Positions 22,687-60,870 of a DNA stretch of 64,000 nt are shown here, piece after piece (within the stretch, counting starts at the first letter, position 1; every line of letters begins with the position of its first letter). Source of the DNA: Lepidurus packardi (Eukaryota > Arthropoda > Branchiopoda > Notostraca > Triopsidae); NCBI GenBank assembly GCA_023053545.1, contig JAKZAN010000004.1:11222001-11286000 (forward strand), given 5' to 3'. Both the position numbers and the translations under genes were made by a program. Below the pieces are notes generated by a model, which was given only the letters and a program-made list of their open reading frames with translations, did no database searches and was not told the origin of the DNA.

Positions 22687-22888
22687 TAGTGCACCCGACT
22701 TAACGACTGCAAACCCCGACTTGCGAACTGCGAACCCCGAATTAAGGATCAGGTTAGGTTAGGTTAGGACTAAGTTAGGTTAGGTTAGGACTAGGTTAGT
22801 TTTCCTTAAGTTCTGTTAGGTTTCGTTAGGTTCTGTTAGGATAGGTTAGGTTAGGGGTTTGTAGTTCTTAAGTCGGATGCACCCTAGT
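22687..22888. repeat. TTAGG-bearing foldback element
   Basis: Imperfect inverted arms (left 22687-22717, right 22854-22888) share the core gcacccgacttaa and its complement ttaagtcggatgc, plus the caaacccc/ggggtttg ends. Between them are many AGGTTAGGTT units. The architecture matches the element in the knirps intron, but the arms differ in sequence. Confidence 0.75.
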
Positions 22889-29500: not shown

Positions 29501-29504
29501 GAAT

Positions 29505-29690
29505 TAGTTTAGGTTATGTTAGGATAGGTTAGGTAAGCTTAGGTTAGAGGTTAGGTTACAGGTTTGCTTAGGTTAGGTTAGATTAGGTTAGGTTAACGAT
29601 TCTCATCAACGAAAGTTGATGAGAAAGGAAAGTCAACGAAAAATCAACAAAAAGTCAAAGGAAAATCAACGAAAGTTGATGAGAAACGTT
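29505..29690. repeat. TTAGG tract followed by GAAA-loop hairpins
   Basis: Bases 29505-29597 are made of degenerate ttaggttaggtta units. A perfect 11-bp stem closed by a GAAA loop follows (arms 29600-29610 and 29615-29625). A second, shorter copy with the same loop lies at 29665-29680, separated by gtcaac/atcaac-rich sequence. GAAA is a stable GNRA tetraloop in RNA. Confidence 0.7.
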
Positions 29691-38215: not shown

Positions 38216-38273
38216 ATAAATCATATGTTTACAAATTTTTTTGTAAAAATAGCAAACGGGTTTCAAAAGGTAC

Positions 38274-39026
38274 CGATTTCGTCGATAAAGATGATGCACG
38301 GCTGGATCTTAACGGCTAGCATAAAGACTGCAGCAACAAGCGTCTGGCTTTCGCCGTACCATTTATCCACCAAGCTAGAAGCGTCTAAATTAATGAAATG
38401 CATGCCTGCTTGCTTGGCAGTCGCTTTGGCAACCATGGTTTTCCCGCAACCAGGAGGTCCATGTAGTAAAACGCCTAATTGAAACGTTGAATAAGGTAAG
38501 GATCATAAGGATGAAGAATTTAGGAGGTTTAATACCTTTAGGAGGTTGCAACAGCTGAGAATTCCCGAAAAGATGGGATTTTTGGACGGGGAGAATGACA
38601 GTGTCTTTTAATTCTTGTAGAATGCCATCCAGACCTGCAATATCGTTCCAAGATGTGGGGAGCTGATGAGAATCAACTAGATTGCTGGCAATGGTAAGCT
38701 CGTATTCGTTTAGCTACACACAGATGAGTGGAATTAGTAAGATAAACGAAGGAAGTTTCATTTGAGTTATCTTACCTTCATATCGGGGCTTAGCTTAAGC
38801 TTTCGCATACTGTTTTGAGCCTAGAGAAAAATGAAGGGGTGTTACTGTTAGGAGTTTAGAAGAATTGGAAAATGAAGTGGTACTAGAGTTTTCGCCTTCT
38901 TTTTCTGTTCCGGGTAGGATCGAGTAAGTCAACCATCCATTTAATTGTGAGGATACTAAAGGTAGTGGCTATGGCTGTTTTCACCAGGACAAAGATAATC
39001 TCTGAACGCGTAAATTCTTCTTTCAT
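38274..39026 (-). pseudogene. ATAD1: 5' half of an ATAD1/Msp1-type AAA ATPase gene, broken
   Basis: Four exons with proper splice signals: 38884-39026, 38776-38820, 38536-38713 and 38274-38474. ATAD1/Msp1 pulls mislocalised tail-anchored proteins out of the mitochondrial outer membrane. Exon 1 gives the N-terminal membrane segment (ILTIKWMVDLLDPTR). Exon 3 gives the linker with the family word DIAGLD. Exon 4 carries Walker A GPPGCGKT, pore-loop region KWYGES and Walker B IIFIDE. Two defects show. Exon 1 (143 nt) loses frame just after DPTR, as though one base were missing; one more base would give 144 nt and the phase exon 2 expects. After exon 4, which ends in a plausible phase-1 donor (GTACCT), I find no second AAA half, including sensor 1 and the arginine finger; repeat sequence follows instead. 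Introns are kept, so this is a DNA-level copy, not a retrocopy. An assembly error could produce the frame loss. Confidence 0.75.
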
Positions 39027-39029
39027 TTT

Positions 39030-41600
39030 TGGTAAAATTATGGTGCTTGATGACCGGCATCTGCCTTGTAGAATTGATTATTGCAATGTTTACTAAACAT
39101 GGTGGCGGCAGTGTTGCAGTTTTTTTTAACTATAACTCGCAAAAGGCGCTCGTAAAGTCGCCAAAGCCCTCGCCAATAAATAAATAATAACAATATAGTA
39201 TAAATAAGAGTATAGATAAAAACACATAGAAGTTATAGTAAACACATAGAAGAAAAACACATAGAAGTTATATAAACACATAGAAGTTATATATATTGTT
39301 TGTAGTGGCTTCAAGACACTACTGGGATCTCCCGGAAACTACGGGAGACTACAAACGTACTGGATGAGTCCGGCAGTTAGGTTTACGGTTCATAGAGGCC
39401 ATAGGTTGTTATGAAAAATTGGATTGTATGTGTAAGTTTACAATACACATGATTTAAAGGAAACACATGGCCTTATATTTAGTTATGAACGATTTTGACT
39501 CGTAAACCAAATAAGGATATTTTTTAAATATTATTTATATATTATATTATTATATAAATATATTATTTAAATAAGGATATTTTATTACATTTTTAAATAC
39601 ATACAAATAAATACGATATAATGCAAACCTCTAGAGAATATAAGGTATGGCTATAGGCAAACGTTCTAACTTTTATCAATCGTAAAAGATCAATGCTACC
39701 CACATACACCAATTTTTATAGGCCTGTTGCTGCAAAGTTAAACCTGTGAAAAATGTATTTGACTTGAGAATTCCATCCAATTTGAATAGCGCGCGTTACT
39801 GGAATGGCGGCAAGGGGTGCTTTGCCCAACTGTGCAGCCGTTGCAACTTGCCCAACTTTGTCCAACTGGCAGTCGCGCGCGTAAAGCCGAACAAGTTACA
39901 TGATCAAAAAGAACCTAATTGTTATGCATAACTTACAGAATAGTTGTTGTTTTTTAGCTGAATTTGCGTAACTTACTCTTTCTGCAGTTACGAACAACAT
40001 TCGTGTTAATGTATAAGCATTAATTTAGCTTCATTTGTGAATTTTGTGCAAAGTGTCTTCAGTGTTTTCAGTGCCAAGTTTCACTGAAACATTTAGACGT
40101 GTAGGCGTTTTTTAACGATTTTGTCAAGTTGGACTGGACAAACTCAAACTAGCTGCCGCTGGGTTGTTCTTTTTCACCTTTTGCCTGCTCCAGTTGGTAA
40201 TTATTATTTGAATTTTCGAGGAGAGACATATTTATTTTTTTCGCCTGTTATGCCATTGAAGCTGAGTGAAAACATGGCGTGCCATGTGGGAGAGATATGT
40301 GGGAGATTAAGGAAAGCTCTTTGAAAACGTATTAAACAGTTTAATATACTGTAATAGATCCGTAATAATAAAAGGAATAAAATAGGTCCGTCCTCCTTTC
40401 GTTGCAGCTTTCGTTCTTATGAATTCGGCTTATTAGTTTGTTATTTATACATATAAACGAATGCTTATGTTTCTCCATTCATACATCGTCGTAAGCAATC
40501 GGAAGTTTATTTTGCTTAGTCCCCAAGTGTGGCTAGGAGACGTGGACTTTCCACAATTTTCGTTCCTATCTATTTGTTGTGTACAGTTACTTGTTATGTG
40601 TGCACTTATTTGTTGTGTACAGTTATTCATTGCCATTTTCCTTATATTTTTTGGGGGAATAGTATTGCTAGAACGCAGAATGCCAGAGCACAGAATGCCG
40701 AAATTTAAAAGAATCTACCTAACAAAGTACCCAATCACTTTGCTCGTTGCTAACGTTGCTATGGCCTCTGGCGAATGATAAAGCCCTCTGGAGGCACTCG
40801 CTTCCACTTTGCATAGTCGACGGAATTAATCCCGCCAGCCATTGTGTGAACAGACGCCACTTCCCTTTGTACGCACTGCGCGCCACTTTGCGTAGTGGAC
40901 GGAATTAATCCCGTCAGCCATTTTGTGAACAGACGCCAAGCCGACTCCACGTCAGGTAATTTGCTCCCGTTTTATTCAAATTTGTCGACTCCCATCCGAC
41001 TTTTATCAAACTGAAAGGCAAACAGACCTAAGTATTATGCAATCAGCTTGCATATTATCACATTTTCTTAATTAAAAGTAACAATGTTGATAGTGTTCGA
41101 CATTATTCCCAGGGGTAAGCGTCAGTAGATTTCGAACATTTTCAAGTTTATTCGCTCCCATTGGCTTCATATTGCCATTAATTCAATTAACAACTACTAG
41201 GAAGTTACCATATTTTGCCTTCCGTTTTCCTCTAGTTAAGCGAAGATTTTGTTTAACCTACTTTTTCACGAAAATGGTCAAAACCCGATTTGAGCAATTT
41301 CTAGATTTTCCTTAATTCCTCAATCCTCATGACTACCAACAAAGATACAACCCTGGTGGGTTATCCCGTTTTTGGATTTAAAAAATATCAATGCAAACAA
41401 ATTTAGCAATTTTCCGGCTAAAAAACGTAATATTAAAAATTCCCGCATGGCCGCCATTGCCGGTCCCGGACAAAGCTCCAGCGAACGTTTTTGTCCCCTG
41501 ACGCTTAACCCGAGTGCCCGCTCTGTTCCGCCATTTTGATTTTTCTAGTCGGGTGGGATGACGTACTTTTTTCGAGACTCAAATTCAACTTGTCAAAGCG
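39030..41600. other. DNA without recognised genes
   Basis: Holds a short acacatagaagtta-type tandem at about 39225-39295, the right copy of the ATAD1-flanking repeat (about 39578-39690), a GC-rich patch with partial inverted ends (about 39788-39885), and a 79-bp tandem pair (40804-40950). Around 41450-41540 two GCCGCCAT/CCGCCATTTTG motifs resemble YY1/Pho sites and could belong to a promoter for the exons that follow; that is inference. Confidence 0.5.
40804..40950. repeat. 79-bp tandem duplication, two copies
   Basis: Copies begin at 40804 and 40883 with ccactttgc(a/g)tagt, and both contain ggaattaatcccg, cagccatt and gtgaacagacgcca. The second copy is slightly short. Confidence 0.8.
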
Positions 41601-41826
41601 TAAAACCGTGTTAAGTTGTGTTTAAAGATGAACAGTATTACTAAGAGTTGTCCCTTTTCTATTTATTAGGTGGTGACAAATTTCACAAACAGTTCTATTG
41701 GTACAAAGTGTTAAGTGTGTGGTCCTTTCCCTCCCGTTCGACTCAGCCAACTTTATCCCCCTGCCTTTTGGCATCCTTTCGGAGAAGAAAAAGAGAACCG
41801 CAACTTTTTTGTCTGCCAAGCTGAGG

Positions 41827-42547
41827 ATGTGTGGAGACAGCCATTATTTCATCTTCTGTGGGAGCTGCCAGGAGAACCAGAAGAAAAGGTATGCCAGGAG
41901 TTGAAAAGTGTTGTGGCCGGTTAGGTCTTTAGCTGCAACATTTTAACTTACTGGGGGGACAGAAAAGTCTTCGCTGTGCCATACAATAGGTCTTAAATGG
42001 CAGAAACAGCGAAAACTTTTCTGGGGTCAGGGGTCAAACGGGTGGTGGAAGCCTCGACTGAAGAACGCGAAGACGCCGCCAGGCAGGGGGAAAACGTTTC
42101 GTCTGTGGACATTTCTGGCTAAGTACGTTCTTTTCTATTGAATTTAAATATTGATAACCTTGTTAGTAACTAACTTCCATCTCGTTTACAGGCTTTCACT
42201 CCGTTTGGGTCCCTTAGTGCTCCGGCTGGGATTTTACCGTGTTTTCAAGATTGTTGCTGTTTTTGGGGGGTATCCACGTGTTCGCTCAGTCGAGGTAAGA
42301 CCTCGTTTGAATTTTTTCCAAAGTGGCTTTCTGGTTTCTTTCCCTAATCGAAGAGTCCATTTTATATTTGAACATGTTGGTTAACATGGCCATAGAAGAG
42401 GGATTGCTTTGGAAGTGTTTCAAAGCTCAGTTTTACAGTTTTTATTTTTATTTCATAGTTTTTATTCTTGTTCTTTTTTTCTAGGACGTTGACGAGATCG
42501 CGAGAAAAGGGAGGGCGAAGTCTCGGAAGGTTTTGGGTCGTAGCTAA
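41827..42547 (+). CDS. Predicted 3-exon small gene of unknown function (module 1)
   Basis: Candidate exons are 41827-41888, 42192-42294 and 42485-42547 (62, 103 and 63 nt; 75 codons plus stop). Every junction has GT-AG signals (donors AAAG|GTATGC and GAG|GTAAGA; acceptors TTTACAG and TTTCTAG), and phases 2 and 0 join without frame loss. The predicted peptide starts MCGDSHYFIFCGSC, has a hydrophobic-basic middle and a basic tail (ARKGRAKSRKVLGRS). I recognise no domain. The frame is also open upstream of the ATG back to about 41698, so an upstream exon is possible. Diverged copies of exons 1 and 2 occur near 43680-43717 and 45400-45453 (exon 1) and 45560-45838 (exon 2); most have lost frame. 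Intron 1 carries two hairpins. It could be a decaying repeat instead of a gene. Confidence 0.3.
41910..42023 (+). ncRNA. Tandem hairpins H1 and H2 of module 1, within predicted intron 1
   Basis: H1 (41910-41939) pairs GTTGTGGC with GCTGCAAC using two G-T wobbles, with loop CGGTTAGGTCTTTA. H2 (41960-42023) pairs 18 bases (CAGAAAAGTCTTCGCTGT with ACAGCGAAAACTTTTCTG, one mismatch), then a 4-base bulge, then GCCAT/ATGGC, around a loop containing TAGGTCTTAA. H2 is 64 bases, about the size of an animal microRNA precursor. Both begin just after donor 41889. Structure is read by eye; expression is unknown. Confidence 0.4.
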
Positions 42548-42892
42548 GCAAAAGGGGGGGAGAACCTGCACCTGGTCGGTCGACTCGGTCTGGTCGGCAA
42601 AATCTCCGTCTTTCCCACACTTGCTATGTCTCCATTTGAGTCTTTTCAACAAGATAAGTCCATTTCGTGTATCTCTCTCTGCTTTCATCCGCGTTCGTCT
42701 TTCCGCCACGCGAAGCTTTTGGGTTTGGAAGAATGAAACAATTCTTGGCCAGAAGTTTTTTTTCATTTTTAAAAGTGTATACTAATGTTGTTGCTTTTAT
42801 TCACATAGGCTATCTATGGGATCTCCTGCGTTATTACTTAACAACATCTCCATGACATTGTGCCCTATGTCGTTAAACATTCCGTCCATTAG

Positions 42893-43126
42893 AAGAAAGC
42901 AAAGAGTCTAGTGAGCTGCAGTTATCCAATTCACCAGTTTCGCCCTTGGTGTTCACTACTGGAGGTAAAGTATTTTCATTGGAATGAACTCGATTTTTTT
43001 CAAATTAATATTTGCTTGGTCCTAGGCTCTTGTGTGCTTCAGACGGAAACTTTCTTCAATTCCGCGGTGTTTTCAAGATTCCCGTACTCGTCCAATGTCT
43101 CGAAGGGAAAAGGAAGATGTAAATAA
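42893..43126 (+). CDS. Exon pair of unknown gene, copy A (ELQLSNSP exon plus terminal exon)
   Basis: Exon 42893-42964 is 72 nt with phase-1 ends on both sides (acceptor CCATTAG, donor GTAAAG). It encodes a short acidic Ser-rich stretch with core SELQLSNSPVSPLVFTTG. A 61-base intron leads to 43026-43126, which continues in frame to TAA and ends KGKGRCK. Two more copies of the first exon follow at 43235-43333 and 44087-44158 with the same phase. Upstream, sequence related to 44478-44575 (cctgcgttattacttaacaa) precedes it. No family recognised; no start codon located. Confidence 0.3.
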   Translation, partial: KKAKSLVSCSYPIHQFRPWCSLLEVKYFHWNELDFFQINICLVLGSCVLQTETFFNSAVFSRFPYSSNVSKGKGRCK

Positions 43127-43234
43127 GTCGACTTGGGCAACGTCGCCATCGTCTGAAACTTGAACTCCGCGCGCAAGTTAGTACTGTGCTTTGTGTTACT
43201 TACATAATACTGATGCTTGTCTCTTTTATTCTAG

Positions 43235-43333
43235 AAATCTCAGCGAAAATTAAGCTAAAGAGGACACTTCTAGATTCTTATGAGCTGCAATTGTCAAATT
43301 CACCAGTTTCGTCCATGGCATTCATAACTGAAG
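43235..43333 (+). other. Exon-like copy B of the ELQLSNSP segment
   Basis: 99 nt, again phase 1-1: acceptor TTTATTCTAG, donor G|GTAAAC. The core SYELQLSNSPVSSMAFITE stays open and differs from copy A mainly by replacements that keep the frame; the 27 extra bases at its start are nine whole codons. The next acceptor-like site (AG|GCTTCC, about 43457) leads quickly to a stop, so this copy may be dead or end there. Confidence 0.3.
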
Positions 43334-43733
43334 GTAAACCATTTTAAAATGAAATGAACTAATGTTCCCTTGATAATTTCGCTCCAAAAAGAGTTTTCCG
43401 TAGTGGAAAACTTTTTTGAATGTATTCATGTTTTTCTCATTCCTCTTTGCTCTAGGCTTCCTCTTTTGAGCCCCTAGTGCTCTTTCCTCGCTATTTAGTA
43501 GCGCAGGCATTCCTAAAGAAGATTATCCGTGCATCAATGGCGATTCCTACAACTGCAATACCGAAGATCATCGTCATCATCAGCTCTTCCCTCAACCCTT
43601 GCCTTGCCTTGGAGCGCCGCCGTAGCTGATCCCGTTGATGTTTCTTCACGTCGCCTTTGATTCGGACTTTGGATTCGCCCTTTCTTGTGATGGAACTGGA
43701 GACCCAGAGGGCATAAGGTATGCTAGGAGGTTT

Positions 43734-43846
43734 GGTTGCGGTAAATCGCTTAAAGATTTGCTGCAATCCAACTTTTTGGGGGGCAGAAAAGTTTCCGTTG
43801 CTGCATGATTCGTTAGGTCTTTAATGGTAGCAACGGAGCTTCTCTG
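43734..43846 (+). ncRNA. Tandem hairpins H1 and H2 of module 2
   Basis: H1 (43734-43769) pairs GGTTGCGGTAAATC with GATTTGCTGCAATCC around GCTTAAA, with wobble pairs and one bulge. H2 (43784-43846) pairs CAGAAAAGTTTCCGTTGCT with AGCAACGGAGCTTCTCTG, loop with TTAGGTCTTTAA. They follow a donor-like GTATGCTAGGAGG at 43718, the same placement as in modules 1 and 4. Confidence 0.4.
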
Positions 43847-44086
43847 GTTTTTGGGGGGCTTGGTTTAGGTGGATTTTGGATACCGATGGAATTCAGGCAG
43901 GCAGGCCAGGGTTGAGTTCGTCTGCGGATTGAAGAAGTGGAGTAAGTTTTGATCTTATTTTGTGTTTATTGAATGTTAATAGTTTTATTTGTAATTCAAA
44001 AAGGCTTCTCAACCGGATTCCCTGCGTTACTACCCAAGCTTATCTTCATTTGAAGCCGTTGTGAGGCTAAACTCTGTCCACTTTAG

Positions 44087-44158
44087 AAGAAAACGAGGAT
44101 TCTTGTGAGCTGCAGTTAGCCGATTCACCAGATTCATCATTGATGTTCATTACGCAAG
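44087..44158 (+). other. Exon-like copy C of the ELQLSNSP segment
   Basis: 72 nt, phase 1-1: acceptor CACTTTAG, donor G|GTAAAT. The core is CELQLADSPDSSLMFITQ, open and aligned with copies A and B. The following acceptor (TCTAATAG|GCTTGAG) meets a stop after two codons. Confidence 0.3.
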
Positions 44159-44230
44159 GTAAATTTTTGGATTTGAATGAACTAGATCTTTTTTGATTAA
44201 TACCTGCCTTGTCATTGTCTAATAGGCTTG

Positions 44231-44338
44231 AGATAGAGCTCCGTTTGGCTACTATTCCGTATTGGGAAATACCGCGAGCAGGCCCGTTCATTTTCAGTGT
44301 GTTAAGTCTTAAACGGTAGCAACGGAGCTTCTCTGGGT
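44231..44338 (+). ncRNA. H2-type hairpin of module 3, enlarged loop
   Basis: The 3' arm ggtagcaacggagcttctctgg is identical to that of module 2. The 5' arm (about 44233-44254, AGAGCTCCGTTTGGCTAC) pairs with it allowing small indels, and the loop has grown to about 60 bases but keeps TTAAGTCTTAA. It looks like a decayed member of the series. Confidence 0.3.
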
Positions 44339-44794
44339 TTTGGTGGGCGTGGTTCGGGTGCATTGTGGGGCCTGTGGAGGACCAGCAGGAAAGGGGTGTG
44401 ATGATGAAGAGGCGGAGTAAGTTTTGACTTTTAATTTGTGTAATTCTGTATACTAGTGCTGTTTTTATTCAAATAGGCCATCCATTGGATCTCCCGCGTT
44501 ATTACTTAACAACATCTCAATGACATTGTGCCTTTATGTTGTTAAATGCCGTCCATTCGAAGAAAGCAAAGACATAAGAAGTGTCTCGGCCCACGTCGTA
44601 GTAGAATTCGCCAGAAGTTTCGGTTTGGCAAACCGTTCTCTGATTCGCTACCATGGATGGACGAACCCGAACCGACGCTGTGCAGCACTGCATGTGTTTT
44701 TCGTATAAACACTAAACCGTGTCCGGATAGGTTCAAGAGAACGAATCCACAACTTAAGTTCCAAATGTGTGTTGCCTTTGAACGAATGTGCACC

Positions 44795-45170
44795 CTGAAG
44801 AACCCTTATAACGTCAGTTGCTCCTTAGCAAGCAGTTAGTGCAGATTTGCTTATCTCCAGAGATGTTGTGAAAGCTAGTAGTGAGTTTATAATTAAACAT
44901 TACCAAGCATGTTGTACATTAACAATCCGCTTAAGCGTTATTTTTCGAAAACATTACCAATTGGATCTTCGAAAACCCTGAAGAGCCCGTATAACGTCAG
45001 TTGCTCCCTAGCAAGCAGTTAGTGCAGACTTGCTTTTCTCCAGCGATGTTGTGAAAGCTAGTAGTGAAGCTAATAGTGAGTTTATAGTTAAAACATTACC
45101 AAGCATGTTGAACATTAACAATCCGATTAAGCGTTATCGTCGAAAACATTACCAATTGGATCTTCGAAAA
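44795..45170. repeat. Tandem duplication of about 185 bp
   Basis: Sequence from about 44795 (ctgaagaacccttataacg) through ttggatcttcgaaaa near 44978 recurs from 44979 to about 45170. The copies share ataacgtcagttgctcc, tagcaagcagttagtgcaga and aagcgttat; the second carries a small insertion. It lies inside the module block and probably arose with it. Confidence 0.75.
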
Positions 45171-45472
45171 TCTGGAGACAATTCAAGTGCGTGTTTAAAG
45201 TGTCAAGTGTGGTGTTTGGCAAAAGGCTGGCCAGGCCTATGCCAGTAAAAAAACAAATGTGTTGGTGTTAAGTGTGCTCTCATCCCTCCCATTCATCCCT
45301 CCTGTCTACTTCATCCCAGCCTACTTCATCCCTGCCTTACATCATCCTTCGCAGTCGACACAATTTACAACTTTAATCTGCTAAGCTGATACTTCTGCTA
45401 CTTGGAGGTAGCTACTTACCTTCTGTGGGAATCAGGAGAACCAGAAGGAACAGGTATGCCAGGAGTTAAAGT

Positions 45473-45582
45473 GTTGTTGGCCGATTAGGTCTTTTGCCGC
45501 AACTTTTAATTTCCTGGGCGGCGAAAAGTCTTGGTTGTTACCATTCATTAGGTCTTTAATGGTAACAACGAAGCTTTTCTAT
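45473..45582 (+). ncRNA. Tandem hairpins H1 and H2 of module 4
   Basis: H1 (45473-45503) pairs GTTGTTGGC with GCCGCAAC, with one bulge and one wobble, loop CGATTAGGTCTTTT. H2 (45522-45582) pairs CGAAAAGTCTTGGTTGTTACCATT with AATGGTAACAACGAAGCTTTTC, with one mismatch and one bulge, loop CATTAGGTCTTT. They begin 19 bases after donor 45454 (GTATGCCAGGAG). Confidence 0.4.
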
Positions 45583-46419
45583 GGTTAACGGATTTGGGGA
45601 GCCTCTACTGAAGAACGCAGCCCTGGCAGGGATGGAAGTTTCGCCCATTTGTCTGATCCTTGGGATTCCTTCATTCCCCTTTCTTCAAATCCCAGTGTTT
45701 CCAAGAGTGAAAAGTGCCGCGATAAACCGTTCTTCGGGTTGGTCCCTTGGTGAGCTTTCTTCACATTCAGTGGTGTTTCCAAGATTGCCTGCGAAGCCTA
45801 AGTCAACTTTTGCAAGTCGAAGTGTTCGCGAGGTCGAGGTAAAAGATAATCTTTGTCTTTCCCATGTCGTTTAGATTTTGATTCGTTTGTAAACATTTCG
45901 AACTTACTTTTTTCTACTTTACGTTTCGTTGCAGGATCTTTGGTAACGTTAATCGACTAAAGTGGGTGGAAGGTGGCGAAAGGGGGAGGACAACTGGGTG
46001 TTGCGACGTTCATACGATGTCTCGAACCGGAAATGCAGAAGTGAGGTCGACTTTACGAACATCTCAAACGTGTGCAACTTGTGTTGTTGTTTTTTATTTG
46101 TCCATCAAAAGTCTACAAACACAAAACTCGGCAAGTTTTCTCCTTCTCCAAAGTCCTTTTCCTTTTCACATGTTTTATGCAACTAGTGTTGTTGTTTTTA
46201 TGTGTTACCGGAAGTCTACAAACGCGAATCAGGACAAGTTTGATCCTTTTCATACGTTTTGTGTTTTCACTCGATTTGGTAGCCTTCCTCTGCGGATGTG
46301 TTGGTTCACACGTATTTGTAAGTTTTAGACATTTTGTTTATGAATTGATTTCATGCGTACTGATATTTTTCTCTTTTCTTCTAGTTTTCGGTGGCCAAAT
46401 GAAGGGGAAGAGGAAGTAA
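45581..46419 (+). other. Module 4 exon-like segments
   Basis: A frame open from 45581 to a donor at 45838 (GTCGAG|GTAAAA) corresponds to exon 2 of the module 1 gene; both end in a VR.VE word at the same splice position. The next acceptor (TTGCAG, exon start 45935) reads DLW and then stop. Further right, an acceptor near 46384 opens a short frame ending QMKGKRK at 46419. The series looks like a copy in partial decay; I cannot say whether any part is expressed. Confidence 0.25.
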
Positions 46420-46560
46420 TCCTGTGCCAAGAGGTCAACATCTAACGATCCCGATTTCAGTTTAAAGGTCATGGGGAGCTTCGGAGTGATGGTTCTAACA
46501 CTTTAATTTACATTTATAAGTTTTTACTACTCATTGTTTCTTTCAGGCGAGCATCGTTGA

Positions 46561-49500
46561 GGTCTTCACTATGGCGGTGGCTAACCTTAGACAGCGGTGG
46601 CTAACCTTAGACAGCAGTGGCGGTCTTTGGCGGGCAATTCCTATTGAAAACATCGGTGGAGGTTTTCATTAGGGCGGTGGCTAACTTAAGACAGCAGTGG
46701 CGGTCTTTGGCGGGCAATTACTATTGAAAACATCGGTGGAGGTTTTCATTAGGGCGGTGGCTAACCATAGACAGCAGTGGCGGTCTTTGGCGGGCAATTA
46801 CTATTGAAAACATCGGTGGAGGTTTTCATTAGGGCGGTGGCTAACTTAAGACAGCAGTGGCGGTCTTTGGCGGGCAATTACTATTGAAAACATCGGTGGA
46901 GGTTTTCATTAGGGCGGTGGCTAACTTAAGACAGCAGTGGCGGTCTTTGGCGGGCAATTACTATTGAAAACATCGGTGGAGGTTTTCATTAGGGCGGTGG
47001 CTAACTTAAGACAGCAGTGGCGGTCTTTGGCGGGCAATTACTATTGAAAACATCGGTGGAGGTTTTCATTAGGGCGGTGGCTAACTTAAGACAGCAGTGG
47101 CGGTCTTTGGCGGGCAATTACTATTGAAAACATCGGTGGAGGTTTTCATTAGGGCGGTGGCTAACTTAAGACAGCAGTGGCGGTCTTTGGCGGGCAATTA
47201 CTATTGAAAACATCGGTGGAGGTTTTCATTAGGGCGGTGGCTAACTTAAGACAGCAGTGGCGGTCTTTGGCGGGCAATTACTATTGAAAACATCGGTGGA
47301 GGTTTTCATTAGGGCGGTGGCTAACCATAGACAGCAGTGGCGGTCTTTGGCGGGCAATTACTATTGAAAACATCGGTGGAGGTTTTCATTAGGGCGGTGG
47401 CTAACTTAAGACAGCAGTGGCGGTCTTTGGCGGGCAATTACTATTGAAAACATCGGTGGAGGTTTTCATTAGGGCGGTGGCTAACCATAGACAGCAGTGG
47501 CGGTCTTTGGCGGGCAATTACTATTGAAAACATCGGGGGAGGTTTTCATTAGGGCGGTGGCTAACTTAAGACAGCAGTGGCGGTCTTTGGCGGGCAATTA
47601 CTATTGAAAACATCGGTGGAGGTTTTCATTAGGGCGGTGGCTAACTTAAGACAGCAGTGGCGGTCTTTGGCGGGCAATTACTATTGAAAACATCGGGGGA
47701 GGTTTTCATTAGGGCGGTGGCTAACTTAAGACAGCAGTGGCGGTCTTTGGCGGGCAATTACTATTGAAAACATCATTGGAGGTTTTCATTAGGGCGGTGG
47801 CTAACTTAAGACAGCAGTGGCGGTCTTTGGCGGGCAATTACTATTGAAAACATCGGGGGAGGTTTTCATTAGGGCGGTGGCTAACTTAAGACAGCAGTGG
47901 CGGTCTTTGGCGGGCAATTACTATTGAAAACATCGGTGGAGGTTTTCATTAGGGCGGTGGCTAACCATAGACAGCAGTGGCGGTCTTTGGCGGGCAATTA
48001 CTATTGAAAACATCGGGGGAGGTTTTCATTAGGGCGGTGGCTAACTTAAGACAGCAGTGGCGGTCTTTGGCGGGCAATTACTATTGAAAACATCATTGGA
48101 GGTTTTCATTAGGGCGGTGGCTAACTTAAGACAGCAGTGGCGGTCTTTGGCGGGCAATTACTATTGAAAACATCGGGGGAGGTTTTCATTAGGGCGGTGG
48201 CTAACTTAAGACAGCAGTGGCGGTCTTTGGCGGGCAATTACTATTGAAAACATCGGTGGAGGTTTTCATTAGGGCGGTGGCTAACCATAGACAGCAGTGG
48301 CGGTCTTTGGCGGGCAATTACTATTGAAAACATCGGGGGAGGTTTTCATTAGGGCGGTGGCTAACTTAAGACAGCAGTGGCGGTCTTTGGCGGGCAATTA
48401 CTATTGAAAACATCGGTGGAGGTTTTCATTAGGGCGGTGGCTAACTTAAGACAGCAGTGGCGGTCTTTGGCGGGCAATTACTATTGAAAACATCGGTGGA
48501 GGTTTTCATTAGGGCGGTGGCTAACTTAAGACAGCAGTGGCGGTCTTTGGCGGGCAATTACTATTGAAAACATCGGTGGAGGTTTTCATTAGGGCGGTGG
48601 CTAACTTAAGACAGCAGTGGCGGTCTTTGGCGGGCAATTACTATTGAAAACATCGGTGGAGGTTTTCATTAGGGCGGTGGCTAACTTAAGACAGCAGTGG
48701 CGGTCTTTGGCGGGCAATTACTATTGAAAACATCGGGGGAGGTTTTCATTAGGGCGGTGGCTAACCATAGACAGCAGTGGCGGTCTTTGGCGGGCAATTA
48801 CTATTGAAAACATCGGGGGAGGTTTTCATTAGGGCGGTGGCTAACTTAAGACAGCAGTGGCGGTCTTTGGCGGGCAATTACTATTGAAAACATCGGTGGA
48901 GGTTTTCATTAGGGCGGTGGCTAACTTAAGACAGCAGTGGCGGTCTTTGGCGGGCAATTACTATTGAAAACATCGGGGGAGGTTTTCATTAGGGCGGTGG
49001 CTAACTTAAGACAGCAGTGGCGGTCTTTGGCGGGCAATTACTATTGAAAACATCGGTGGAGGTTTTCATTAGGGCGGTGGCTAACCATAGACAGCAGTGG
49101 CGGTCTTTGGCGGGCAATTACTATTGAAAACATCGGTGGAGGTTTTCATTAGGGCGGTGGCTAACCATAGACAGCAGTGGCGGTCTTTGGCGGGCAATTA
49201 CTATTGAAAACATCGGTGGAGGTTTTCATTAGGGCGGTGGCTAACTTAAGACAGCAGTGGCGGTCTTTGGCGGGCAATTACTATTGAAAACATCGGTGGA
49301 GGTTTTCATTAGGGCGGTGGCTAACCATAGACAGCAGTGGCGGTCTTTGGCGGGCAATTACTATTGAAAACATCGGTGGAGGTTTTCATTAGGGCGGTGG
49401 CTAACTTAAGACAGCAGTGGCGGTCTTTGGCGGGCAATTACTATTGAAAACATCGGTGGAGGTTTTCATTAGGGCGGTGGCTAACTTAAGACAGCAGTGG

Positions 49501-50400
49501 CGGTCTTTGGCGGGCAATTACTATTGAAAACATCGGTGGAGGTTTTCATTAGGGCGGTGGCTAACTTAAGACAGCAGTGGCGGTCTTTGGCGGGCAATTA
49601 CTATTGAAAACATCGGTGGAGGTTTTCATTAGGGCGGTGGCTAACTTAAGACAGCAGTGGCGGTCTTTGGCGGGCAATTACTATTGAAAACATCGGTGGA
49701 GGTTTTCATTAGGGCGGTGGCTAACTTAAGACAGCAGTGGCGGTCTTTGGCGGGCAATTACTATTGAAAACATCGGTGGAGGTTTTCATTAGGGCGGTGG
49801 CTAACTTAAGACAGCAGTGGCGGTCTTTGGCGGGCAATTACTATTGAAAGCATCGGTGGAGGTTTTCATTAGGGCGGTGGCTAACTTAAGACAGCAGTGG
49901 CGGTCTTTGGCGGGCAATTACTATTGAAAACATCGGTGGAGGTTTTCATTAGGGCGGTGGCTAACTTAAGACAGCAGTGGCGGTCTTTGGCGGGCAATTA
50001 CTATTGAAAACATCGGGGGAGGTTTTCATTAGGGCGGTGGCTAACTTAAGACAGCAGTGGCGGTCTTTGGCGGGCAATTACTATTGAAAACATCGGTGGA
50101 GGTTTTCATTAGGGCGGTGGCTAACTTAAGACAGCAGTGGCGGTCTTTGGCGGGCAATTACTATTGAAAACATCGGTGGAGGTTTTCATTAGGGCGGTGG
50201 CTAACTTAAGACAGCAGTGGCGGTCTTTGGCGGGCAATTACTATTGAAAACATCGGTGGAGGTTTTCATTAGGGCGGTGGCTAACTTAAGACAGCAGTGG
50301 CGGTCTTTGGCGGGCAATTCATGATGAAGATACTTTTGGGGGGTTTTCATTGTGATGGTGGCTAACCTTAGACAGCAGTGGCGGTCTTTGGCGGGCAGTA
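46561..50400. repeat. 80-bp minisatellite, 46 full units plus degenerate ends
   Basis: Units starting ctattgaaaa run without phase change from 46641 to 50320 (46 x 80 bases), flanked by a degenerate first unit (46561-46640, with an internal 20-base duplication) and last unit (50321-50400). Variation is confined almost entirely to two sites: catcGGTgga/catcGGGgga/catcATTgga and ctaaCTTAag/ctaaCCATag. The 80-base step is not a multiple of three, so it does not code. The plus strand is G-rich (agtggcggtctttggcggg). The array follows the module block directly. Confidence 0.97.
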
Positions 50401-51050: not shown

Positions 51051-51300
51051 CCCCTTTCCCTGTTCCCAACTCCCTCCCCTGCTCGGTTTCCTATCCTCGA
51101 TATTCGAGCTCGTAATGCCGAAGCATCACAATTTCGAATATGGGAATAGGAACCTTGCCGGGAAGGCATTTGGTACAGGGAAAGGGAGCCATTTAATATT
51201 TCGTATTTTCGACGAAATAAACTGCCACGACCGGGAATCGAACCGAGGACCTTTGGGTCCCCAGTCGTGCGTGTTATCCACGCGGTCATGGGCCTATATA
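51050..51300 (-). mobile_element. tRNA-like SINE or tRNA pseudogene
   Basis: On the minus strand the head (about 51222-51293) has an A-box-like TGACCGCGTGG and a perfect B box GGTTCGATTCC at the spacing of a tRNA promoter, ending in GGTCGTGGCA. Acceptor and anticodon stems do not pair well enough for a working tRNA. A non-tRNA body continues to about 51050. I infer a SINE from the combination of B box and body. Confidence 0.55.
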
Positions 51301-51960
51301 TAATATCCGTTGAAACATATATAAATACAATTATGAACTTAGCCAGTGTACAGTGTGAGGGTAGCACCCATCTTTTGTTCGATTTATATAAATTTGACGG
51401 TATGCCCATTGCCATGCATTGTATTCTCTAAAAGTTTGCAGTGTATCTATTCCTTTGTATTGTATTGAAAAGTGTAATAAAAAAAGCCTTCCTTATTTTG
51501 GATTGTGAGTCAAAATCGTTCGAAATAATTACAAGGCCATATAGTCTTATAGTATGTTTATTAAAAGCTCACAAATACAAGTTCTCATACATTATTGTAT
51601 TGACTCAGCCATTATTGTATTGGCCCTTGATATATGGCCCTGGATTTTTGGGGGGAAATTAAAAAATTTCCGAAATCTTCGCTTTTATCTCAAAAATTAC
51701 AAATCGTACAAAAGGTCCGTACCATTGAAGCATTCAGCGAAAGTTGCCGAAGGCTTTCCTCGGTTCGTATTTTTAAAAGCATAATAAAATAAGCACACTT
51801 GAGGGATTCTCGCCTAGTCGACTTACATGTATTTAGCAGGCTTGACAACACACAAGAACAAGAAATAACCTAGAAAAGGAGGGTATTGCCAATTAGCGAT
51901 TGCTAATTCTGTGCCCACATTCTCACCAAAAAGCTTTCTATCGTCTCCTTCTCTACACAC
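51301..51960. other. Noncoding DNA downstream of ZDHHC17
   Basis: No exon or clear repeat found. The part next to 51965 should contain the 3' UTR of the minus-strand ZDHHC17 gene, but I see no canonical polyadenylation signal close to the stop. Confidence 0.45.
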
Positions 51961-55520: not shown

Positions 55521-57835
55521 TTACCCAGATATCTTGGCCTTTTTAGCTTTCGCTTGGCCAGGGCTTTTGGTTTGTTTCTTCTGCTTGTCGGTTTTGTCCT
55601 GTCCTTGCTCGATGTCGCTACGTTTCTGGCCCAGTTTGACGGCTTCTTTCTCGCGTCGTGATCGGCTACGCATCATGGAGCGGTACAAACGCTTATGACG
55701 TTTCTTCATCATCAGCTCACGGAATCTGTAATGCTCTTTCTCTTCAGCTTCCGCAGCTTGCTTAGGATCAGCCTTCTCCACCTTACCACGCTTCACCTCC
55801 ATACCTTTAAGCTAAAGGCAACCAAAATTTGACAACTGCACAAACTTTGCTAAGTTTTCTTCAAATTTTACCTTTTGCGTGGTTACTTTGCCAGGTTCTT
55901 CGTCACTGACGTCACCTTCTAAGTCACCATCATCATCATCCGAATCTTCTCCTTCCTCGGAACCTTCTTCCATACCCTCACTTTCTTCCCCACTCTTCTC
56001 TTCTACGTCTACTCAAAATTTGTTAAAATAACTCTGCTTTAAGAGAAATTGATAGAAATTACCCATTTCCTTTCCCTTTTGACTGGCCAATAATGCCATT
56101 CGTTGAGGAGGCACGTAATCACCAGCACGTTCTTGCACGAAGGGGGAAACATGGGGAGGGAGTACTGCTCCTACAAAGTAGTCCTCTACGGGAAGTAAAC
56201 GTTTGAAGTTGATGCTGTCATAAACCCATTGGGGCTGAACGTAATACCTAGAATGATACTTGAATTAAACCCTGTTTTAATTAAAGTTAGTTTTTTTCCA
56301 CGCAATTTTGTGGAGATGGAGATTTCACCTCGAAAGGTAGGGTTTATCTATAGTTGGTCTGTCAACGATTTGATGGGTGATGGTCTCATCAGATTCGGGA
56401 AACGATGAACCAGCGAATGAAGTTTCATCCCAAGAAACTTGACCTCCACATGCTCTTAACACAAACACGACAGATTCGCGAGGCACTTCTCGTCCCAAGA
56501 AGACCTTCAGGCCCACAAACAAAGACTGTAGACGTTTAATAGCATCGGCTTCTTGTTTTGCTTCTTCAATTTTCGTCGGATCGCCAGACTATTTCCATTA
56601 AAATTTCAATAAAAAAATTAAGAAAATGTAATTGGGAATTGTTGTAAATAGAATTACTTTCTCGAAAACATCAAGTTCCGGCTCTTCTTCAGTCGCAGCC
56701 AGTGAACGAACTAAACTACGGTTCAGAGCAGCTACCAGTTCACTGTAGTCTTCTTTGTCGGTTTCTGCGTTTAATAAAGTTGAATTAACGATGCTGATGA
56801 TAGATGATGTCCAAACCTTGTACTCCTGGAGTGACGACAGATAATTTGGGGGGATAATGAAGATTCAAACTATGGTAGAGGCGGAAGTTGATGAAACCCA
56901 ACATGGTCGTGTAAAAATCAACGAATGTGGTCATGATTTTGTAATCGACTTGCGAAGCAGGTTGATGCTAAGAAGAGATGGGGATTACAAACAAACTTTG
57001 TAGGAAATTTGTAGGAAATGTAAGGAAATTTACCTGGTAACCTCGCTGATGGGGAACTATCCAAGTAATGGTTTCGCCTTTGACGTCAACTTGATAGTAA
57101 AAACCTTTGATGGAGACGAAAACTTTGCGAAGCGCTTTAGCTTCGATGACGTAATGCATAAACTCGAGAGTTAATCTTCTGCAAAGATGAATTAACTGCA
57201 TGGGAATATGGGTTATGCGAGGCATGGTGGCGTACAGACAACACAGCGATAAGCAGTCATCCATATCCCTTAAGGCGTCCGAAAACGTAGGATATCTACA
57301 TAATGAAACACAGCATTAGAACCGTGCAGTGAATTTGCAATGCGAGAAATTATTCACCTTTCTTTGACAAGATGGTCTAAAGACAGAGTTGGCTTGTTCT
57401 GGTTCATTCGTTCAACTGCTTCCTCGTCTCCTTTCTCTCTGGCAGTCTTGATCTTGCGCATAAAGACCTATACAAACATAAAGGAATTTAGAACTTTCCA
57501 ATTTTAATTATGTTCTTTTTACCTTGAATTCTCTGAAACGCCATAGCATGGGCTCGTGCATCAAAAACCGAATATCCTTGGTATAATACAGGGTTTTCCT
57601 GTCAATTTGGCCTTTTTGGGCTTTCTTGCGGTTATTAGGCTCGCGTGGATAGATTCCTTTCAGAATGCATATTCGGCGAAAGTCTTTCAAGTTCAACTGT
57701 AGCTTTTTTAAGGCTTGAGCTCTGGAAATGTATTTGGCAGCCTCTCCTGACGCGTACTACCAGTACATAGTGTTATTACATTCTATGAGCTAATTAAGTA
57801 GTTGTTTTTACCTTCTTTTTCATGCGGGCACCCAT
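55521..57835 (-). CDS. Pes: Pescadillo (PES1), ribosome biogenesis factor of the PeBoW complex
   Basis: Ten exons: 57812-57835, 57523-57756, 57358-57467, 57034-57295, 56817-56967, 56658-56764, 56329-56588, 56063-56247, 55872-56008 and 55521-55811; 586 residues, almost the length of human PES1 (588). It acts in the nucleolus with BOP1 and WDR12 in maturing 5.8S/28S rRNA and the 60S subunit. The pescadillo N-terminal domain covers about 1-280 ([54 protein letters not shown]). A BRCT domain lies at about 315-410 ([44 protein letters not shown]). An acidic stretch in exon 9 and a Lys/Arg-rich tail follow, both usual for the family. All phases join. The short first exon (MGARMKKK) matches the family start. 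It diverges from lin-7. Confidence 0.97.
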
Positions 57836-59576: not shown

Positions 59577-60870
59577 ATGCCCCAAAACGTACGTTCGCTT
59601 TGAATTCGTAATTTAAGTTAATTTTGTATTTAGGTTATCTCTTGTTTTTTTAGGGATTACGTTACACGCTTGACAACGATCGTCTAACTCTAGAACAAAG
59701 GCAGTCTTACGAGGATAATGGATTTATAGTCGTTAAAAAGTTGATTCCTGATCCCATGATCGATGCCTTTCGGTAAGCACCAGTGAAACCTGTCGTTTTC
59801 TACGATTCCTAGCTTTGTTAAAGGATAATTAACGATAATCTACTTCATCTAGGGAGAGGTTTTTGAATCTCTGCGATAAGAAGATTCCATGGGGTGGGAT
59901 AACTATGATGAAAGACATTTCCTTGGCGAAAATGGGGACCGTAACTGGCGAACGATTGTTCAACAAAGCCCAGGACTTTAACTACGATGAAGTTCTTTAC
60001 AAGTACATAGAATACAGCCCGGTATATTCCTTATCCTACAATGCTAAACAAGAAAAACTCGAAACTTACCAACGAATCGTAGCTTTTGGATTACGTGGAA
60101 TGCTTCGTTGGCCCTAATATCCAATCCATGCATACCATGCTCATCAACAAGCCGCCTGATCCCGGTACTCAGACATCTCGCCATCCTCTACATCAAGTAC
60201 CTTCTTAGTTATATAACTGTAGGTTTAGGTAATTGTGCTCACTTCGTCACTCACTAGGATTTGCACTACTTTCCATTCCGACCAGCCGATCGCATTGTTT
60301 GCGCTTGGACTGCCATGGAGCGCATCAACAGTGACAATGGTTGCTTAATAGTCCTTCCAGGTTCTCATAAAGGTGTTTTACACCAACACGATTACCCCGA
60401 TTGGGAAGTAAAAATGACGATTTACTCTAAAGAACGAAATATTAGTCACATTTGTTTAAAAATTTACAATCTGTCTTGCAGAAAGGCGTAAATAAGATGT
60501 ACCATGGGGTTCGAGGTTACGACGGAGTTCCTTATACTGAACTCCACATGGAAAAAGGCGACACGGTGTTTTTCCACCCGATTTTGATCCACGGATCGGG
60601 TACCAATCGCACCAGTGGCTTCCGTAAAGCAATTTCTTGCCATTATAGCTCTGCAGACATGCACTACATTGACGTACGTGGTACGACGCAAGAAAATATT
60701 GCTAAAGAGATCGAAGAAGTGGCGAAACGACGAGGCATGGATGGTCTAACTTTCCAAGTACTTTCTAAAAAGTTTTAGACTCAAATCCGAATGACTAACA
60801 ATGCTTTGATTAGGAAATGTGGCAGTTTCGCAGTCGATTTGTACGCGGACGCGCTCCAGCTCGCTTATAA
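59577..60870 (+). CDS. PHYH: Phytanoyl-CoA dioxygenase, peroxisomal (PHYH)
   Basis: Seven exons: 59577-59588, 59654-59772, 59853-60021, 60083-60196, 60258-60407, 60482-60757 and 60814-60870; 298 residues. This Fe(II)/2-oxoglutarate dioxygenase 2-hydroxylates phytanoyl-CoA, the first step of peroxisomal alpha-oxidation. Iron ligands appear as H137-x-D139 (RHPLHQDLHYFPF) and H225 (HPILIHGSG); R236 (GFRKAISCH) is the 2-oxoglutarate-binding Arg. Their spacing matches human H175, D177, H264 and R275. The last exon gives [11 protein letters not shown], similar to the human C-terminus, and ends Ala-Arg-Leu, a type 1 peroxisomal signal. The short first exon (MPQN) leaves no room for the N-terminal PTS2 of the human enzyme. 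Without the last intron the frame would stop at 60778 and lose the conserved tail. Start chosen as the only ATG joining in frame. Confidence 0.95.

Follow-up and report, generated by a model that had tools for sequence, protein, structure and literature searches.

A 64,000-nucleotide stretch of the genome of the notostracan Lepidurus packardi (contig JAKZAN010000004.1, positions 11,222,001 to 11,286,000; hereafter the window) raises the question of what a series of hairpins set beside repeated 5' splice-site-like motifs might be. A sequence-only reading of the window had described a small hairpin, H1, and a larger one, H2, behind each such motif, and had proposed a tandem intronic structured-RNA or microRNA cluster, or an undescribed foldback repeat. 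We find that the unit is made of three neighbouring RNA hairpins, in the order H0 - GGTATG - H1 - H2, and spans about 170 bases (164-172 nt in the window). A large dispersed repeat carries it three times on its plus strand, along with a degenerate fourth copy. We interpret it as a conserved three-hairpin domain within a high-copy, apparently non-coding repeat, with the plus strand as the most likely strand, and propose, with a probability of roughly 0.6, that it is a previously undescribed candidate for a cis-acting RNA domain, belonging to a non-coding repeat of mobile type.

The layout of the unit follows from whole-unit folds, in which H0 ends 3-4 bases upstream of GGTATG and the CCAGGAG directly 3' of GGTATG pairs with CTTCCTGG just 5' of H2. 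This pairing makes H1 a long hairpin: the small H1 hairpins of the sequence-only reading exist, but they are only its tips. The pairs of H1 tip and H2 are present as described; the third hairpin just upstream, H0, had been missed. A repeat and motif search of the window recovered the repeated GTATGC(C/T)AGGAG motif, and 38 of the 39 distinct units retain GGTAT, which is donor-like by sequence. The features of the four modules are as follows.

41852-41884, plus strand: module 1 H0 (TCTTCTG/CAGAAGA), from the unit fold and RNAalifold, coordinates rechecked
41888-41893, plus strand: module 1 donor-like GGTATG, between H0 and H1
41894-41954, plus strand: module 1 full H1, base CCAGGAG/CTTACTGG with one mismatch in the window copy, tip at 41910-41939
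41960-42023, plus strand: module 1 H2, z -5.9, matched by the H2 model R1 at 48.3 bits
43677-43712, plus strand: module 2 H0 (GCCCTTTCT/AGAGGGC, bulged), from the unit fold and RNAalifold
43717-43722, plus strand: module 2 donor-like GGTATG, from the motif and repeat search
43723-43779, plus strand: module 2 full H1, tip z -5.5, base from the unit fold and RNAalifold
43784-43846, plus strand: module 2 H2, z -3.6, R1 match of 88.3 bits (R1 was built partly from this H2)
44231-44338, plus strand: module 3, a degenerate enlarged foldback without GGTATG, z -1.6, with a 22-base arm common to module 2
45419-45448, plus strand: module 4 H0 (CCTTCTG/CAGAAGG), from the unit fold and RNAalifold
45453-45458, plus strand: module 4 donor-like GGTATG, from the motif and repeat search
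45459-45517, plus strand: module 4 full H1 (base CCAGGAG/TTTCCTGG), from the unit fold and RNAalifold, its tip alone weak (z -1.4)
45522-45582, plus strand: module 4 H2, z -4.9, R1 match of 89.1 bits (R1 was built partly from this H2)

The three H2 hairpins lie exactly where they had been proposed, and fold at -28.2, -27.7 and -25.6 kcal/mol in modules 1, 2 and 4, respectively. The H1 tip of module 1 has a z of -3.1. The arm changes described beforehand are real (CGCTGT/ACAGCG as compared to GGTTGT or TGTTGT/ACAACG, and TTGCT/AGCAA as compared to TTGTT/AACAA), and the 22-base arm GGTAGCAACGGAGCTTCTCTGG is indeed identical in modules 2 and 3, where it starts at 43826 and 44315. The loop TTAGGTCTT is shared, with ATAGGTCTT in the H2 of module 1. 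Module 3, previously read as an enlarged H2, could be placed as a foldback, but its fold is weak, with 13 of 200 shuffles equally good, and some related copies are without the 3' arm.

The evidence that carries our interpretation comes from comparing copies of the unit. For H2, an alignment (A7) of 54 matches, 32 of them distinct, was assembled from 36 sources. Left out were loci repeating the same places, two loci with insertions inside H2 (L062 and L066), and L059, L060, L061 and L064, which had no R1 match at E 0.001 (at this threshold R1 detects H2 in the other 13 of 17 short loci around divergent arms). The H0+H1 set was drawn from the 54 matches of A7 plus L066, with identical units merged, giving 39 distinct units. 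It omits L058 (truncated upstream) and L025:9876 (at the end of its stretch), neither of which has a readable GGTATG, as well as L042:2604 (an insertion) and units without the full 42 bases before GGTATG. A smaller set of 33 units, the only one used for RNAalifold and the refolding null, excludes in addition L011, L021, L031:5737, L051, L052 and L054, three of which have a damaged H1.

Across the 39 units, 97.1% of the 801 cells that make up 21 pairs were found to be paired, as compared to 45-62% with slid partners, and both sides had changed in 17 cells versus 3.4 in shuffles. Parsimony on a tree built from the unpaired columns placed 68 substitutions in the 42 stem columns. When the inferred substitutions were re-placed at random on this tree, assuming 75% transitions, the column-matched null was paired in 78.9% of cells on average and in 95.3% at most (3,000 runs), below the observed value. 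Only 1 of 400 simulated alignments in the refolding null was as stable as the real 33-unit set, from which RNAalifold, with no structure supplied, recovered H0, the H1 base and the H1 tip (21 pairs, 5 with two-sided changes). Structures taken from a single module paired 653/749, 604/808 and 642/737 cells in the rows of the other modules (75-87%), and only 34-58% when partners were slid. Moving from 33 to 39 units changed the paired share from 97.4 to 97.1% and left the result unchanged. The copies therefore keep the fold while their letters change, suggesting that the unit is a functional RNA component and not a cluster of microRNAs.

The kinds of pairs that are kept also point to a strand. 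H0 and H1 hold 198 G.U cells against 5 A.C cells in the 39 units, and H2 holds 60 against 13, both counts being inflated by descent; counted per pair in the 33-unit set, G.U occurs in 17 of 21 pairs and A.C in 3, each time in one row. This imbalance in H0 and H1 points to a plus-strand RNA. For the consensus of H0 and H1, the plus-strand fold reaches -14.4 kcal/mol and the minus-strand fold -3.5 kcal/mol; the H1 tips, too, are favoured on the plus strand, where their folds are 1.6-2.6 times stronger. The strand assignment draws on H0 and H1; the strand signal of H2 is mixed.

These results bear on whether the repeat might be inert, its foldbacks being old palindromic duplications copied along, with pairing retained through descent from a few source lineages and arm conversion in the DNA. 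Two-sided changes are few, as such a history would have it, and a loop motif is common to H1 and H2, as in duplicates, with one H1 tip scoring 22 bits with the H2 model. We nevertheless consider this explanation unlikely, since neither DNA palindromes nor arm conversion would prefer G.U, and conversion would yield Watson-Crick pairs instead of the observed excess. Moreover, pairing is far beyond both the tree null and the refolding null, and H2 changes three times more slowly than the element around it.

This last point comes from substitutions relative to the majority base in the window and ten long copies, which amount to 3.4% for the element and to 0.7%, 1.1% and 1.6% for the three H2 hairpins (pooled 1.06%; P = 0.00075, 20,000 random window triples). 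Among windows of the element, the H2 hairpins of modules 1 and 2 fall within the slowest 2-4% and that of module 4 within the slowest 12%. The H1 tips are not uniformly slow, with module 2 at 3.1%. Within H2, 14 of 1227 arm cells and 4 of 440 loop cells have changed, so that the loop is conserved like the arms; the deeper set similarly gave 48 events in 40 stem columns and 30 events in 23 loop columns. Taken with the pairing kept in 39 distinct H0+H1 units and the strong plus-strand bias, the slow H2 supports the part of the sequence-only reading that spoke of a structured RNA or an undescribed foldback repeat.

Its other part, an intronic cluster in which the H2 hairpins would be microRNA precursors, found no such support and appears very unlikely. 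The H2 hairpins of modules 1, 2 and 4 are stable, measure 61-64 nt, in keeping with animal microRNA precursors as long-stemmed hairpins of about 60-70 nt, and have a low substitution rate. In such precursors the arms are generally more conserved than the loop, and here the loop is conserved as much as the arms. In addition, the H2 hairpins belong to a three-hairpin unit with over 100 copies within one repeat family. A scan of the whole window with Rfam 15 returned no family, and hence no microRNA, at gathering score, and a permissive scan of 39400-46600 gave one sub-threshold match outside the modules (mir-7131, 22.4 bits versus 74).

Several observations weigh against a cis-acting plus-strand RNA domain. 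The H2 hairpins of modules 1, 2 and 4 all have stronger z values on the minus strand (-9.0, -6.2 and -6.3), and the H2 of module 1 is also more stable there, with those of modules 2 and 4 more stable on the plus strand. At 1.43 events per column, the stems of H0 and H1 change at about the rate of unpaired columns (1.54). The sequence-only reading had emphasized arms that change in step; pairing is retained beyond the nulls, but, judged by tree-aware nulls, the tally of pairs altered on both sides falls short of significance (39 units, P = 0.14; 33 units, P = 0.08 and 0.15; H2, P = 0.10 and 0.21, with 4 of 20 pairs so altered in the largest set). The covariation energy term was ordinary in the refolding null of the 33 units. 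The tested pairs were picked from the same data, and only the refolding and cross-module tests escape this. Retention in H2 is moderate (P = 0.008 with free placement and 0.058 column-matched, 32 distinct rows), and not every copy is complete, H0, H1 or part of H2 having been lost in some.

The units are carried by a repeat that is scattered over the genome. In the 108.6 Mb searched, the 3' arm of H2 was found, with up to 3 mismatches, at 127 places of the module-2/4 type and 40 of the module-1 type, and reversed-pattern controls for this arm gave 0 places genome-wide. Searches with modules 1, 2 and 4 gave at least 40, 43 and 68 matches (the best 40 of 122, 196 and 221 candidates scored). On the six largest contigs, 63 of 135 listed places have no second hairpin place within 6 kb, so many copies carry one module only. 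Ten 20-kb copies match the window piece by piece over roughly 39.7-46.6 kb, in an alignment broken up by rearrangements, deletions and insertions. The following features emerge.

39700-46600, plus strand: dispersed-repeat core, from the ten aligned copies, with approximate edges and a left part found in few copies
46594-50397, plus strand: 80-bp minisatellite adjoining the core, 47.5 copies at 97%, present in 9 of the 10 long copies

Element sequence also adjoins the arm, to one side or both, in 17 of 17 short loci. Homology thus continues past the hairpins in long and short copies alike, indicating that the hairpins are internal to a long dispersed repeat and are not its ends. Hundreds of dispersed copies with target-site duplications had been named beforehand as the mark of a miniature inverted-repeat transposable element (MITE), each hairpin pair being a separate miniature transposon. 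Over 100 dispersed copies do exist, but the hairpins lie inside a longer repeat whose homology extends beyond them, making a MITE-like family extremely unlikely.

The borders of the repeat are less regular. The segments 39424-39708 and 51353-51581 are inverted, 74-76% alike, and flank the repeat, and might be old terminal inverted repeats; their ends vary between copies and no target-site duplication could be placed. We gave up the idea of a simple element with ends near 39.42 and 51.60 kb, since beyond those points the copies are not alike; the 50.6-51.6 kb part may be a separate repeat. In one cluster on contig C2 (L051, C2:4326400-4332400), the module-4 part stands in tandem with a 4.53-kb period and 99.93% identity over 1,472 bases; a third place follows at similar spacing.

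Three other accounts of the repeat were set aside. A Transposase_21 gene lies beside one repeat copy and might have marked an autonomous partner, but of 37 matches this one alone is within 5 kb of a listed hairpin place (for the module-2/4 type, the best 100 of 127). The modules differ by indels of 1, 2, 3 and 4 bases, arguing against a protein-coding block; the strongest windows of 3-periodic substitution, with starts at 44760 and 44580, do not overlap the units, although module 1 falls in a weaker window (41820-41999, chi-square 9.8). A viral origin was discarded after two scans for exact patterns found no match in viral contigs.

Copies of the repeat lean towards contig ends. On the six largest contigs the outer quarter holds 38 of 97 listed places for modules 2/4 and 23 of 38 for module 1, where 24 and 9.5 are expected, short contigs being excluded. 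Near the ends of contigs C6, C3 (the contig of the window) and C5, at distances of about 5.9-12.4 kb, are three module-2-type loci (L054, L055 and L056) whose H2 is identical, as if carried by a common end-of-contig duplication. The window has internal TTAGG-type arrays at 22751-22855 and 29504-29595; TTAGG is the usual arthropod telomere unit.

Other observations concern the neighbourhood of the repeat. ATPase-like frames, named by eye, occupy 38235-39130; this segment occurs twice in the genome, both times on C3, about 430 kb apart and 96% alike, and both occurrences adjoin a repeat copy, so the pair is a segmental duplication or a capture. A Chitin_bind_4 cuticle-protein domain lies beside one repeat copy. 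The minus strand of 51222-51295 resembles a tRNA 3' half by eye, with no tRNA called there by ARAGORN, and might be a remnant of a short interspersed nuclear element. Exons of ordinary genes were seen further on, for the Pescadillo N-terminus (56971-57315, minus strand) and a phytanoyl-CoA dioxygenase (60446-60775, plus strand).

Among known systems, the copepod spliced-leader RNA (slRNA) is the nearest published architecture that we found. Copepod slRNAs of 108-158 nt have exon stem-loops, a GU, and stem-loops flanking a single-stranded RR(U+C)RR Sm site, and occur in multiple types and tandem arrays (PMC4664967). The unit resembles them in its order of exon hairpin, GU and stem-loop, in length, and in its many copies, some in tandem. 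It could accordingly be asked whether the unit is an amplified spliced-leader-like RNA gene, with H0 as the exon, a GU donor and stem-loops around an Sm site; this idea draws on the length of the unit, its nearly invariant GGTAT and an RR-Y5/6-GG stretch that 32 of 39 units carry between H1 and H2. In our unit, however, this pyrimidine stretch forms the 3' side of the H1 base helix and is hence paired (helix 2 is paired in 98.5% of cells), so that the single-stranded Sm site, a defining feature of slRNAs, is absent. The exon part differs among modules, the units lie within a long repeat, and the Rfam scan gave no 5S rRNA match in the window. We therefore regard this identity as highly improbable.

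Other systems share single aspects with the repeat. Plant retrozymes with hammerhead ribozymes (PMC4918200) likewise place a defined RNA fold on a multi-copy non-autonomous repeat, whereas here no ribozyme was found at Rfam threshold and the fold consists of three simple hairpins around GGUAUG. The foldback transposon Tetris (PMC4079207) is similarly modular, rearranged, apparently non-autonomous and endowed with internal tandem repeats, but its foldback comes from terminal repeats, while the conserved hairpins here are small and internal. The repeated stem-loops of Drosophila roX (PMC4719309) are alike in that several structured modules lie in one non-coding sequence. The module described here, in contrast, rides on a dispersed repeat and is known from sequence alone. 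The roX RNAs are products of single-locus host genes with known protein partners.

If the unit is indeed a cis-acting RNA domain, source elements would be transcribed from the plus strand, and the domain may act within the element transcript as a folded element that binds a protein or a small nuclear ribonucleoprotein, with the donor-like GGUAUG kept open between two helices. Its likeliest role would be in governing how the element's own RNA is spliced, stabilized or packaged, and several modules per transcript would multiply the binding sites. A bolder version, which we put forward as quite doubtful, is that a 5' splice-site-like GGUAUG displayed between helices and repeated along a non-coding transcript forms an array that captures U1 or a protein for the propagation of the element, possibly as a trans-splicing donor that lacks a classical Sm site, and represents a new class of mobile-element RNA domain.

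Among the open-licence PMC papers listed in our searches we recognised nothing as the H0-GGTATG-H1-H2 unit. Repeats are usually masked out of RNA-family searches. Here a high-copy repeat is its own comparative alignment, so that a single genome is enough to read off the fold, its likely strand and how it is spaced around a donor-like motif. If functional, the three-hairpin unit would be a candidate RNA family unmatched by Rfam 15, and would give a testable way into the question of how a large non-coding element retains its RNA or moves it.

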